Shown: in pieces, positions 14,833 through 42,756 of the stretch | How the letters are laid out: the number at the start of each line of letters is the position of its first letter | Numbering within the stretch: position 1 is the stretch's first letter | Source: Candidatus Gastranaerophilales bacterium | GTDB lineage: Bacteria > Cyanobacteriota > Vampirovibrionia > Gastranaerophilales > Gastranaerophilaceae | Direction: 5' to 3' | DNA: 55,294 nucleotides | Assembly (NCBI GenBank): GCA_944324375.1 | Contig: CALUWB010000003.1 | Coordinates: forward strand, 1 to 55,294 | Position numbers and translations under genes: made by a program | The notes under the pieces: generated by a model | What the model was told of the DNA's origin: nothing | What the model saw: only the letters and a program-made list of their open reading frames with translations | The model's database searches: none

Positions 14833-14940
14833 TTGGAAATATATTAAAATTATAGTAAGATGTTTTTAGGGTAGTACCTCATTACCTCCGTCTGCACACG
14901 CTTTTTACTAAGAAAACGGCAGAGAAAGGAGGTGAGAAAC
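14833..14940 (+). promoter_or_regulatory. cassette 1: promoter and Shine-Dalgarno-masking leader
   Basis: TTGGAA (14833-14838), 17 nt, TAAGAT (14856-14861). The RNA would start near the box TTTTAGGGTA (14864-14873). In the leader ACCTCC (14884-14889) plus TCTGC (14891-14895) can pair with GCAGA (14919-14923) plus GGAGGT (14928-14933), hiding the ribosome site of the peptide. The loop contains CACACG, shared with cassettes 2, 5 and 6. Confidence 0.7.
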
Positions 14941-15039
14941 ATGAAGTTAAGTTTTATACCACTTGTCAATTTTTTAATTGATAAGTATAAAACAAAAGCT
15001 CCAGTAGTTGAGATACTGGAACTTTTAATTAAAACATAA
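14941..15039 (+). CDS. cassette 1 peptide, 32 aa, putative type I toxin
   Basis: ATG with GGAGGTGA 7 nt upstream. The peptide starts MKLSFIPLVNFLID, has a basic middle (KYKTKAP) and an amphipathic end (EILELLIK). Its closest relative is the peptide of cassette 2 345 bp away: same length, the same MKL start, K-Y-K-x-K-A-P and E-L-L-E/L-E-L core. It is an amphipathic rather than an obvious membrane-spanning peptide. Function is inferred from the cassette layout only. Confidence 0.65.
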   Translation: MKLSFIPLVNFLIDKYKTKAPVVEILELLIKT

Positions 15040-15098
15040 CTTTTAGGGTACTAAGTCAAGCTCTAAGGAAGCTGTATTTCTTTAGGGCTTGCCCCTAT
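15040..15098 (-). ncRNA. cassette 1: predicted antisense RNA
   Basis: Minus-strand promoter TTGATT (15132-15127), 16 nt, TATAAT (15110-15105), starting near 15098. The RNA would run back through the 14-bp hairpin (15057-15070 with 15078-15091) and the second TTTTAGGGTA box (15041-15050). Its complement of that box can also pair with the identical 10-nt box in the sense leader. The 3' end is not determinable by eye. Confidence 0.55.
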
Positions 15099-15104
15099 GT
15101 TTTT
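15041..15104 (+). terminator. cassette 1: 3' box and strong hairpin terminator
   Basis: CAAGCTCTAAGGAA pairs over 14 bp (two G-U) with TTCTTTAGGGCTTG, enclosed by AGGG/CCCCT, and is followed by TTTTT at 15100-15104. Confidence 0.8.
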
Positions 15105-15177
15105 ATTATAATTCATTTCTGCAAGAAATCAATAGCAAGTATCAACTTTAGTATCAAAATAAATACACATATACCAA

Positions 15178-15285
15178 TTGTAAATATATTAAAAATATAG
15201 TAAGATATTTTTAGGGTAGTACCTTATTACCTCCGTCTGCACACGCTTTTTACTAAGGAAACGGCAGAGAAAGGAGGTGAGAAAC
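15178..15285 (+). promoter_or_regulatory. cassette 2: promoter and Shine-Dalgarno-masking leader
   Basis: TTGTAA (15178-15183), 17 nt, TAAGAT (15201-15206), then box TTTTAGGGTA (15209-15218). The leader is nearly identical to cassette 1, including ACCTCC/GGAGGT and TCTGC/GCAGA pairing and the CACACG loop. Confidence 0.7.
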
Positions 15286-15384
15286 ATGAAGTTAGCTTTG
15301 AATTTATTTCTTGATTTATTTGTTAAGAAATACAAGAAAAAAGCTCCAGAGCTGGAACTCTTGGAACTTTTTTTAAATAGCTAA
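15286..15384 (+). CDS. cassette 2 peptide, 32 aa, putative type I toxin
   Basis: ATG with GGAGGTGA 7 nt upstream. Starts MKLALNLFLDLF, then VKKYKKKAP and ELELLELFL. It is clearly a duplicate of the cassette 1 peptide, yet the flanking leader and terminator DNA are better conserved than the peptide, so the RNA parts appear to be under strong constraint. Confidence 0.65.
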   Translation: MKLALNLFLDLFVKKYKKKAPELELLELFLNS

Positions 15385-15442
15385 TTATAGGGTACTAAGT
15401 CAAGCTCTAAGGAAGTTGAGTTTCTTTAGGGCTTGCCCCTAT
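15385..15442 (-). ncRNA. cassette 2: predicted antisense RNA
   Basis: Promoter TTGATT (15476-15471), 16 nt, TATAAT (15454-15449). The predicted start is near 15442, and the RNA crosses the hairpin 15401-15435 and the second AGGGTA box (15389-15394). Confidence 0.55.
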
Positions 15443-15448
15443 GTTTTT
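15385..15448 (+). terminator. cassette 2: 3' box and hairpin terminator
   Basis: Same 14-bp stem as cassette 1 (15401-15414 with 15422-15435), followed by five T (15444-15448). Confidence 0.8.
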
Positions 15449-15544
15449 ATTATAATTCATTTCTACAAGAAATCAATAGGAACAATAATTCTAATTTTAT
15501 AAATATTAATATATTTACATTTATATCCCAATGTGAGATAATTA

Positions 15545-15620
15545 TTCAATACAAAAATAGAGTACAGGCTAAAGATTTTTGATTATTTTTTCGCTGAATT
15601 TTAAAAGAAAGGAGGTTGAA
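15545..15620 (+). promoter_or_regulatory. cassette 3: leader with a hairpin around the ribosome site
   Basis: Box AGAGTACAGGCTAAAG (15559-15574) takes the place of the AGGGTA box. TTTTTCGCTGA near 15588-15598 can pair with TCAGCGAAAAA inside the reading frame (about 15634-15644), enclosing the Shine-Dalgarno site GGAGG and the TTG start in the loop. The upstream -35/-10 is not clear. Confidence 0.5.
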
Positions 15621-15692
15621 TTGATAGTCAAAATCAGCGAAAAAGAACTACTACTTGTATTTGTAATAGTTCTTGCTCTCAAATCCCTTTAA
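15621..15692 (+). CDS. cassette 3 peptide, 23 aa, putative membrane toxin
   Basis: TTG start with AAAGGAGGTTGAA upstream. The peptide begins MIVKISEKELL and continues with a 10-residue Val/Leu/Ile/Phe run ending ALKSL, one short membrane helix with a basic end. It aligns with the cassette 4 peptide 26 kb away (I-S/T-E-K-x-L, hydrophobic core, short tail). The weak TTG start fits tight control of a toxic product. Confidence 0.6.
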   Translation: MIVKISEKELLLVFVIVLALKSL

Positions 15693-15694
15693 TT

Positions 15695-15732
15695 AGGGTA
15701 CGGGTTAGGGTGTTAGCGCCACCCTTGCCTGT
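15695..15732 (-). ncRNA. cassette 3: predicted antisense RNA
   Basis: Promoter TTGTAA (15766-15761), 16 nt, TAAAAT (15744-15739). The RNA would begin near 15732 and include the complement of the box AGGGTACGGGTTAGGG (15695-15710). That box differs from the leader box only by A/G and C/T changes, so most positions could still pair with the antisense RNA, several as G-U. Confidence 0.5.
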
Positions 15733-15766
15733 ATTCTTATTTTAACTTATTTTTTATTTTTTACAA

Positions 15767-17882: not shown

Positions 17883-17919
17883 GGTTGACAAATACTGGAA
17901 AATCGGAAATAATAAAAAT

Positions 17920-17972
17920 ATAGGGAAACGGCTTCAAGAATTGCCGTTCTTGAAACCGTTCTTCGCTCCCTA
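17920..17972 (+). ncRNA. cassette 6: predicted antisense RNA
   Basis: Plus-strand promoter TTGACA (17885-17890), 17 nt, AATAAT (17908-17913), with a perfect consensus -35. The RNA would begin near 17920 and cover the long hairpin AACGGCTTCAAGAA / TTCTTGAAACCGTT nested in TATAGGGA/TCCCTATA, which is also the terminator of the minus-strand peptide mRNA. Confidence 0.55.
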
Positions 17973-18044
17973 TATGAACATCGAAATCAAATTTAAAATG
18001 TATCCTACGACTCTTAGGGTACATTTTATTTTTTCTCTATTCAT
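17970..18044 (-). CDS. cassette 6 peptide, 24 aa, putative type I toxin
   Basis: ATG at 18044 with AAAGGGGGTGATGCA upstream. It starts MNREKIKCTLRVV and ends in a hydrophobic LNLISMFI. It resembles the cassette 5 peptide (M-R/N-R-E-x-I-K start, hydrophobic rest, same 24-aa length). The middle of its coding DNA is itself an inverted repeat (TGTACCCTA ... TAGGATACA), so the mRNA can fold inside the frame. This is the only cassette of the six in minus orientation. Confidence 0.6.
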   Translation of the reverse strand: MNREKIKCTLRVVGYILNLISMFI

Positions 18045-18135
18045 TGCATCACCCCCTTTCATCCTTATTCTTCGCTATTCGTGTGTTGAGGGAGTAATAA
18101 AGAGCTTACCCTTTAATTTTTATTTTATCATATTA
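18045..18135 (-). promoter_or_regulatory. cassette 6: leader with AGGGTAAGCTC box and anti-Shine-Dalgarno
   Basis: AGGGTAAGCTC (18112-18102) is the same box as in cassette 4. ACTCCCT (about 18095-18089) can pair with AGGGGGT of the ribosome site (about 18057-18051) with one G-U. The CAACACACG loop matches the other cassettes. A TAAAAT at 18127-18122 is a possible -10; the -35 is weak. Confidence 0.55.
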
Positions 18136-18195
18136 TATCTATTTTAAATATATTTTCTGCTTATATATATACTTATTTTTTGATATAATACTTGT

Positions 18196-41454: not shown

Positions 41455-41560
41455 TTGATAAATAGCAGAAATTATATTAAAATATATCTAGGGTAAGCTC
41501 CGTATGCCTCCACCCACACAGACTTGTTAAGAGAAATTGGCGGGAAAGGGGGTGATAATC
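41455..41560 (+). promoter_or_regulatory. cassette 4: promoter and leader
   Basis: TTGATA (41455-41460), 17 nt, TAAAAT (41478-41483), then the box CTAGGGTAAGCTC (from 41489), the same as cassette 6. CACCC within CCTCCACCC (41507-41515) can pair with GGGTG of the ribosome site GGGGGTG (41548-41554). CACACAG loop present. Confidence 0.7.
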
Positions 41561-41632
41561 TTGGATTTCAGTATAACTGAAAAAGCGTTATGGCTTATCT
41601 TATTGATAATCATAACGCTTAGACTAAGATAG
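41561..41632 (+). CDS. cassette 4 peptide, 23 aa, putative membrane toxin
   Basis: TTG start, AAAGGGGGTGA upstream. Starts MDFSITEKALWLILL and ends with Ile-rich then LRLR: a membrane helix with a basic end. It aligns with the cassette 3 peptide. The coding DNA itself contains a perfect 10-bp inverted repeat, AAGCGTTATG / CATAACGCTT, so the mRNA can fold over most of the frame. Confidence 0.6.
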   Translation: MDFSITEKALWLILLIIITLRLR

Positions 41633-41682
41633 GGAGTTAAGAAAGCTTATAAGAGATGCACCTCTTATGAGCTTTTCCCTAT
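41632..41682 (-). ncRNA. cassette 4: predicted antisense RNA
   Basis: Promoter TTGAAA (41716-41711), 16 nt, TATAAT (41694-41689), start near 41682. It crosses the terminator hairpin AAGCTTATAAGAG / CCTCTTATGAGCTT enclosed by ATAGGGA/TCCCTAT. Confidence 0.55.
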
Positions 41683-41780
41683 AAATATATTATAGTATAT
41701 TTCTCACTTTTTTCAAGATTATATCTTATTAATTATATGATTAATAATTAAGTATTTATAAAATTTTGCCCTTATTATAA

Positions 41781-41885
41781 TTGATAAATAACAGAAATTA
41801 TATTAAAATACATCTAGGGTAGTACCTTTTGCCTCCACCCACACACGAATTTTACTAAGAAATCGGTGGAAAGGGGGTGATTAAA
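41781..41885 (+). promoter_or_regulatory. cassette 5: promoter and leader
   Basis: TTGATA (41781-41786), 17 nt, TAAAAT (41804-41809), box TAGGGTAGTACC from 41815. CCTCCACC (41832-41839) pairs with GGTGG and, after two bulged A, AGG of the ribosome-site region. CACACACG loop. The promoter and start of the leader are nearly identical to cassette 4, showing recent duplication. Confidence 0.7.
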
Positions 41886-41960
41886 TTGAGAAGAGAAATA
41901 ATAAAAGCTGCCATAATTGCAGTTATAGCAGCTCTTAAAATTCTATTAAACTTCTTATAG
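41886..41960 (+). CDS. cassette 5 peptide, 24 aa, putative membrane-active toxin
   Basis: TTG start behind AAAGGGGGTGATTAAA. Starts MRREIIKAAIIAVIAAL and ends KILLNFL: a basic N-terminus and an Ala/Ile/Leu amphipathic helix. It resembles the cassette 6 peptide. The TAG stop is the first three bases of the downstream TAGGGTACTAAG box. Confidence 0.6.
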   Translation: MRREIIKAAIIAVIAALKILLNFL

Positions 41961-42010
41961 GGTACTAAGTGAAGTCCTTTAGTAGCTACTTACTAGGGAC
42001 TTCCCCCTAT
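41958..42010 (-). ncRNA. cassette 5: predicted antisense RNA
   Basis: Promoter TTGAAA (42044-42039), 16 nt, TATAAT (42022-42017), start near 42010. It covers the hairpin GAAGTCC ... GGACTTC and the TAGGGTACTAAG box. The promoter DNA matches that of cassette 4 almost base for base. Confidence 0.55.
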
Positions 42011-42082
42011 AAATATATTATAGTATATTTCTCACTTTTTTCAAGATAAAAACATTTTACTCGTTTGTTAACTTAATCGATA

Positions 42083-42213: not shown

Positions 42214-42756
42214 TCACTTGGTCACTGTTATATACTTATTCCAAATAATATTATCGCTGTTCCATTTTTCAATAACAGGAGAATCTCCATCAGCATAACC
42301 AATTGGAATAACACATAATGGCATTATACCGTCCGGCATGTTTAAAACCTTACGAGCTGTTTCTGCTCTATCCATTTTAGGATAACAAGCAGTCCAAACA
42401 GCACCAAGTCCTAAAGAATGAGCTGATAACAAAATATTTTCAACTGCTGCTGAGCAATCCTGTACCCAAAACGTTTGTGCTGTTAAGTCCTCTTTATCTC
42501 TTATATCTCCACAAACAACTATACATAAAGGAGCATTGAACAACATCTTTGCATAAGGAAGCCCTTCTGCTAATTCATCTAATAATTTTCTATCATCTAC
42601 CGCAAAAAACTTCCAAGGCTGACGATTTCTTGCAGATGGTGCAGCCATGCCAGCACGCAAAATCAATTCAATTTTATCTTTTTCAATTGGTTTATTAATA
42701 AACTTTCGAACACTTTTTCTTGTGAAAATTGATTCTATAACCTTATTAGTTTCCAT
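42214..42756 (-). CDS. nitroreductase-family FMN oxidoreductase
   Basis: 180 aa. RKSVRKFINKPIEKDKIELI and AGMAAPSARNRQPWKF are the N-terminal FMN-binding signature; QDCSAAVENILLSAHSLGLG and the C-terminal VIPIGYADG follow. It reduces nitro groups or quinone-like substrates with NAD(P)H; the true substrate is unknown. The final residues TVTK and the stop lie in DNA resembling the intergenic repeat next to 52.3 kb, so the C-terminus may come from a repeat insertion. Confidence 0.92.
   Translation of the reverse strand: METNKVIESIFTRKSVRKFINKPIEKDKIELILRAGMAAPSARNRQPWKFFAVDDRKLLDELAEGLPYAKMLFNAPLCIVVCGDIRDKEDLTAQTFWVQDCSAAVENILLSAHSLGLGAVWTACYPKMDRAETARKVLNMPDGIMPLCVIPIGYADGDSPVIEKWNSDNIIWNKYITVTK

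Follow-up and report, generated by a model that had tools for sequence, protein, structure and literature searches.

Before a first proposal from Microcystis in 2025, type I toxin-antitoxin systems were known only from Proteobacteria, Firmicutes and Tenericutes (PMC12390103), a narrow range behind which a bias of search is suspected. In B. subtilis, the pairs bsrG/SR4 and txpA/RatA overlap at their 3' ends by 100-140 bp and the duplex leads to cleavage by RNase III; moreover, bsrG has a sequestered ribosome-binding site (RBS), and SR4 adds RBS sequestration to the effect of the duplex (PMC6562991). In Helicobacter pylori, aapA/IsoA combines a peptide of ~30 aa, present in several chromosomal copies, with an antisense RNA of ~80 nt, and the aapA mRNA is closed by a long-distance interaction between its 5' and 3' ends (PMC6733600). 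The E. coli system tisB/IstR-1 pairs a 29-aa amphipathic membrane toxin, whose leader folds into an inhibitory structure, with an antisense RNA (PMC8309996), and msoT1/msoA1 of Microcystis aeruginosa is the candidate type I system put forward in 2025 for Cyanobacteriota (PMC12390103).

Herein we analyse a stretch of 55,294 nt from a Candidatus Gastranaerophilales bacterium (the whole stretch is called the window), in which positions 17885-18127 very probably form a type I toxin-antitoxin module on the chromosome, belonging to a family with further copies in Candidatus Gastranaerophilales. The minus strand bears a compact unit (18112-17908) made up of a 5' box, a hairpin masking the RBS, a 24-aa ORF, a 3' box and a terminator. 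In fact, the initial annotation had placed here a sixth, inverted cassette between aroH and a response regulator, and its parts are all found: the box AGGGTAAGCTC at 18112-18102 (-), which it had likened to that of its cassette 4 and which recurs exactly only once in the window, at 41490-41500 (+), the CACACG loop at 18085-18080 (-), the ribosome site AGGGGGTGAT at 18057-18048 (-), and the ORF of the 24-aa peptide MNREKIKCTLRVVGYILNLISMFI with its stop codon at 18044-17970 (-). Its nested terminator hairpin is also present, but as two hairpins, one per strand (17961-17926 on the minus strand and 17994-18028 on the plus strand), where 0.3 terminator-like hairpins are expected by chance. The features of the locus are as follows.

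17885..17913, plus strand: predicted antisense promoter TTGACA, 17 nt, AATAAT (TTGACA 17885-17890, AATAAT 17908-17913)
17908..17969, minus strand: intrinsic terminator of the peptide mRNA, a predicted fold with inner stem 17961-17926, outer GGGA/TCCC and a T-rich tail
17920..18036, plus strand: predicted antisense RNA (antitoxin) of about 115 nt, its ends placed from promoter and terminator
17964..17974, minus strand: 3' box TATAGGGAGCG, overlapping the stop codon, with predicted pairing to the 5' box region
17970..18044, minus strand: 24-aa peptide MNREKIKCTLRVVGYILNLISMFI, its frame supported by conservation and codon-position bias; a putative membrane-acting toxin
17994..18036, plus strand: intrinsic terminator of the antisense RNA, within the peptide ORF (stem 17994-18028, then the T run TTTTTTCT)
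18048..18098, minus strand: leader hairpin masking the RBS, ACTCCC facing GGGGGT, with a conserved CACA loop segment, from covariation
18049..18056, minus strand: ribosome-binding site GGGGGTGA, GGRGGTGA family-wide
18102..18112, minus strand: 5' box AGGGTAAGCTC, GGGT nearly invariant, pairing with the 3' box
18122..18127, minus strand: putative -10 of the peptide mRNA, TAAAAT, as cassettes of the family keep TAnnAT a few bases before the box

The 5' box is the probable 5' end of the peptide mRNA. For its promoter, TATAAT at 18132-18137 (-) is an alternative -10, and no good -35 is found at the locus; in the family, a sense -10 of at least 5/6 occurs in 56 of 66 copies vs 35 in shuffles, a moderate support.

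The cassette family was traced by a covariance model of the 5' leader, which was built from five window cassettes and recovers all five with E <= 1.4e-14, as members by construction. The four on the plus strand are delimited by local alignment at 14868-15110, 15213-15455, 41490-41690 and 41816-42020, and all five, the inverted one included, are unambiguous (leader model E <= 2.2e-11), so that the minus-strand unit is supported as a genuine inverted member of the family, as first interpreted. Beside the cassettes at 41.5-42.0 kb, a 180-aa ORF at 42214-42756 (-) matches nitroreductase (PF00881). A divergent sixth candidate at about 15540-15745 (+), with the peptide MIVKISEKELLLVFVIVLALKSL, has a cassette-like layout by eye: an antisense hairpin AGAACTA..TAGTTCT is followed by a T run, and the antisense promoter, TTGTAA-16-TAAAAT, is weak; it is undetected by the leader model and is without the AGGG/CACA leader. 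The refined model adds one more copy in the same genome (G000), at C65:2957-3038 (L143), which reads MNRYQIKSAIKVLITLLKLIDCLL, and five of the six model-detected copies of this genome are thus on the window's contig.

In the home family of Candidatus Gastranaerophilales, the leader model matches 99 of 288 genomes and 23 of 41 genera, with several divergent copies per genome and a patchy presence. In the order and phylum samples, all matches listed are in the home family but one, a strong match near a contig edge of a 66%-complete genome (G050:C49:139-217), which may be due to contamination or horizontal transfer. A pattern scan of viral contigs gave one match, judged to be chance by its model score (E 0.32); in phage DNA only one match of 25 nt was found, and in plasmid DNA none. 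Altogether 118 distinct copies were collected, 112 of them with a usable ORF, and 66 non-redundant ones were kept.

On the plus strand, the initial annotation had noted a perfect TTGACA-17-AATAAT promoter 2 bp after aroH. The promoter does lie on this strand, 2 bp after the aroH stop, but it scores 11/12 since its -10 is AATAAT. Its purpose, and the hairpin within the ORF as a plus-strand terminator, are new to the present analysis: some 115 nt separate the promoter from the terminator, both antisense to the peptide mRNA, and the evidence makes the promoter one that would drive an antisense RNA ending within the peptide gene. Within 140 nt after the stop, on the antisense strand, a promoter of at least 10/12 is found in 64 of the 66 non-redundant copies vs 2.5 in dinucleotide shuffles, and one of at least 11/12 in 55 vs 0.2; on the sense strand, only 9 of 66 reach 10/12 over this stretch. 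Moreover, a hairpin-plus-T terminator of <= -9 kcal/mol in the ORF region is carried on the antisense strand by 65 of 66 copies, whereas synonymous recoding of the ORFs with the codon usage of the cassette family leaves 8.7 on average and 15 at most; the sole copy without it is a broken one. Since the 3' features were unused in collecting the copies, these tests are independent of the copy search. The codons therefore carry two messages, the peptide on one strand and the terminator on the other. Across the family the predicted antisense RNA has a median length of 112 nt (IQR 110-116), starting at a median of 51 nt beyond the stop codon and ending about 14 nt into the ORF. At the level of sequence, this amounts to an antisense gene that has a promoter of its own and whose RNA would be complementary to the putative toxin mRNA.

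The mRNA itself appears to be folded in two ways. The RBS hairpin covaries among 107 distinct sequences (for example, ACCACC faces GGUGGU in some copies and ACCUCC faces GGAGGU in others), with 118 two-sided changes where shuffles give 43 +/- 5 and slid controls 14-29, in an alignment fitted to the structure, which favours the hairpin; and the 5' box region is predicted to pair with the 3' box, at this locus by the duplex AGCTCTTTATT/TATAGGGAGCG of -10.8 kcal/mol, the copies' own 5'-3' pairs being stabler than permuted ones (-10.98 vs -8.98 +/- 0.27 kcal/mol, 0/10000), where both statistics ignore relatedness and so overstate the significance, the matched variants being visible by eye. In fact several alternative matched pairs of ends occur among the copies. 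The leader CACA (18085-18082 (-) here) is nearly invariant, with 64-66 of 66 copies per column; as it is needed neither for pairing nor for the antisense RNA, its conservation counts against the toxin-antitoxin model, and a contact with a protein or the ribosome is possible.

The mechanism that we propose is read from elements, conservation and an excess over controls that are all established in the sequences. The minus strand would give an mRNA of about 200 nt encoding the 24-aa cationic amphipathic peptide, repressed in cis by the hairpin over the RBS and by pairing between its 5' end and the bases immediately past the stop codon. In trans, the strong convergent plus-strand promoter would give an antisense RNA of about 115 nt, starting in the 3' end of the mRNA and stopping at the terminator encoded within the ORF, and the long duplex of the two RNAs would block translation and expose the mRNA to double-strand-specific decay. 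Once the mRNA is released, the peptide would be toxic, and 3' trimming may have a role in the activation.

Is the reading frame real? The initial annotation let its proposal depend in part on the conservation of the 24-aa frame, and the frame is conserved: two congeners carry the identical peptide, and it can still be recognised in other genera, for example as MKRLIIKDALSVVGHLLQILSIFI. If the frame were accidental, in a family of structured non-coding RNAs or in a small mobile repeat, the strongly conserved RNA structures and the several related copies per genome would be accounted for; yet the start codon stands 2-7 nt after GGRGGTGA in nearly all copies, a fixed spacing from a consensus RBS, the peptides (21-32 aa) fall into families recognisable across genera, and in 31 independent close pairs of the cassette family the differences by codon position are 105/50/131 (p = 1.6e-8), which makes this explanation very improbable. 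The same pairs have a pN/pS of 0.49, and with the codon-position bias the frame therefore appears to be translated under moderate constraint. That the ORF is a leader peptide or attenuator for a downstream gene is scarcely credible: a short ORF followed by a terminator-like hairpin speaks for it, but attenuation needs neither an antisense promoter nor an antisense terminator within the ORF, and because aroH, which comes next after the ORF, runs in the opposite direction and converges on it, no gene is left to attenuate and the reading was rejected.

Harder to set aside is that the peptide is useful rather than toxic, a small membrane peptide that regulates a membrane protein, or one that is amphipathic and secreted, in either case with its level tuned by an antisense RNA. 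The anatomy described above is equally expected from such a non-toxic peptide and is no proof of toxicity, and the peptides are amphipathic and conserved across genera. The modest pN/pS counts against the toxin-antitoxin reading. However, multiple divergent copies per genome with a patchy presence fit a toxin better, and so do three layers of repression and the loss of the start codon or the frame in otherwise intact copies. For example, in the congener G003 one extra base in the run of A that follows the start breaks the frame (L017 4570-4890) with the RNA parts intact, and in L030, L126 and similar copies ATA replaces the ATG start with the RNA parts kept; an assembly error is possible for single cases, and the G003 frameshift was also counted against the toxin-antitoxin reading, but start loss or frameshift with intact RNA parts fits what is expected of a toxin gene. 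We consequently hold the useful-peptide explanation to be unlikely, with some weight left to it, and return to the toxin-antitoxin module as the preferred one.

The peptides of the family are small and hydrophobic (mean GRAVY 1.4), as is expected of the short peptides of type I systems, and mostly cationic, and the one at this locus is cationic and amphipathic, a putative membrane-acting toxin, whose hydrophobic moment was compared with that of TisB. The family's peptides fall into several classes: MKRxIIKxALxVxGHxLQIISLFI and relatives, which include the copy at this locus, MKFCITEKALWLILLIIIALxxxK, MxLGFxxxLDFLIxxYKEKAPELELLELFLxS, and a further class, MIDKIIMLLLALVALIVASKV. We lean, with moderate confidence, to a modular type I superfamily in which one RNA chassis (5' box, CACA hairpin, 3' box and antisense promoter) is loaded with several dissimilar small membrane peptides, with the antitoxin terminator in the toxin codons, and which is confined to one non-photosynthetic gut family of Cyanobacteriota.

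The surroundings of the locus vary among relatives. Pfam bears out aroH as a type I chorismate mutase (PF07736, E 1.8e-40) and the gene on the other side as a response-regulator receiver (PF00072), and close relatives of aroH occur in records that are Candidatus Gastranaerophilales assemblies. When the regions downstream of aroH are compared, as the initial annotation proposed, they carry this cassette, carry a different one, or are without it. Within the genus, aroH is followed in the window by the inverted cassette, in G002 by the inverted cassette plus another, in G003 by a 365-aa gene (L017 3383-4480 (-)) and then both cassettes, and in L021 by a different cassette, while in G005 the second cassette alone is found. 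The 11-bp GGTTGACAAAT after aroH recurs in G003 as the -35 region of the displaced cassette and repeats at both edges of the 365-aa gene there; this suggests short-repeat recombination, with deletion or insertion, for that gene, and the window junction could have arisen from recombination between such repeats.

As for novelty, Rfam gave no real match for the cassette at gathering or lax thresholds, and the peptides have no match in Pfam, NCBIfam or PDB. The literature covered, with T1TAdb and subscription papers outside its scope, holds no relevant paper on toxin-antitoxin systems in Melainabacteria, Vampirovibrionia or Gastranaerophilales. The kind, a type I toxin-antitoxin system, is known, and the family, the host class and the chassis appear to be new. 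If the modular reading is true, no earlier type I system would be on record for the class, and these uncultured bacteria would have a major hidden family of small-peptide genes. The family is large in the gut Gastranaerophilales, and gene finders easily miss its loci. Moreover, the leader model together with the antisense promoter and the in-ORF antisense terminator makes a signature for searching other lineages, and the dual-coding constraint, toxin codons on one strand and antitoxin terminator on the other, offers a clean computational test for such systems.

Compared with the known systems, the locus shares features with several of them. No sequence relationship to tisB/IstR-1 was found, nor to bsrG/SR4, txpA/RatA or bsrE/SR5 by Rfam, Pfam and NCBIfam, searches whose power is limited by the shortness of the peptides. 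In size and amphipathicity the peptide is like membrane toxins such as TisB (PMC8309996), but IstR-1 has a standby site as its target, and its gene does not run across the ORF. As in aapA/IsoA, the ends of the toxin mRNA would pair 5' to 3'; however, IsoA starts inside the ORF and masks the RBS, whereas the predicted antisense RNA here starts downstream of the stop codon, and the RBS is sequestered in aapA3 by the long-distance interaction and here by a local hairpin. The study of msoT1/msoA1 predicted toxins of 39-81 aa with one or two transmembrane helices in a photosynthetic host, and described no shared RNA chassis (PMC12390103). In layout the locus has the 3'-end overlap of the B. subtilis systems: like bsrG/SR4, txpA/RatA and bsrE/SR5, the locus combines a small, here putative, membrane peptide with an antisense RNA on the 3' part of its mRNA (PMC6562991), and as in the first two the antisense overlap is convergent, with 110-116 nt predicted here vs about 100-140 bp there. 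What sets the present family apart from them is that the shared box, the CACA leader and the end-to-end pairing recur in every peptide class.
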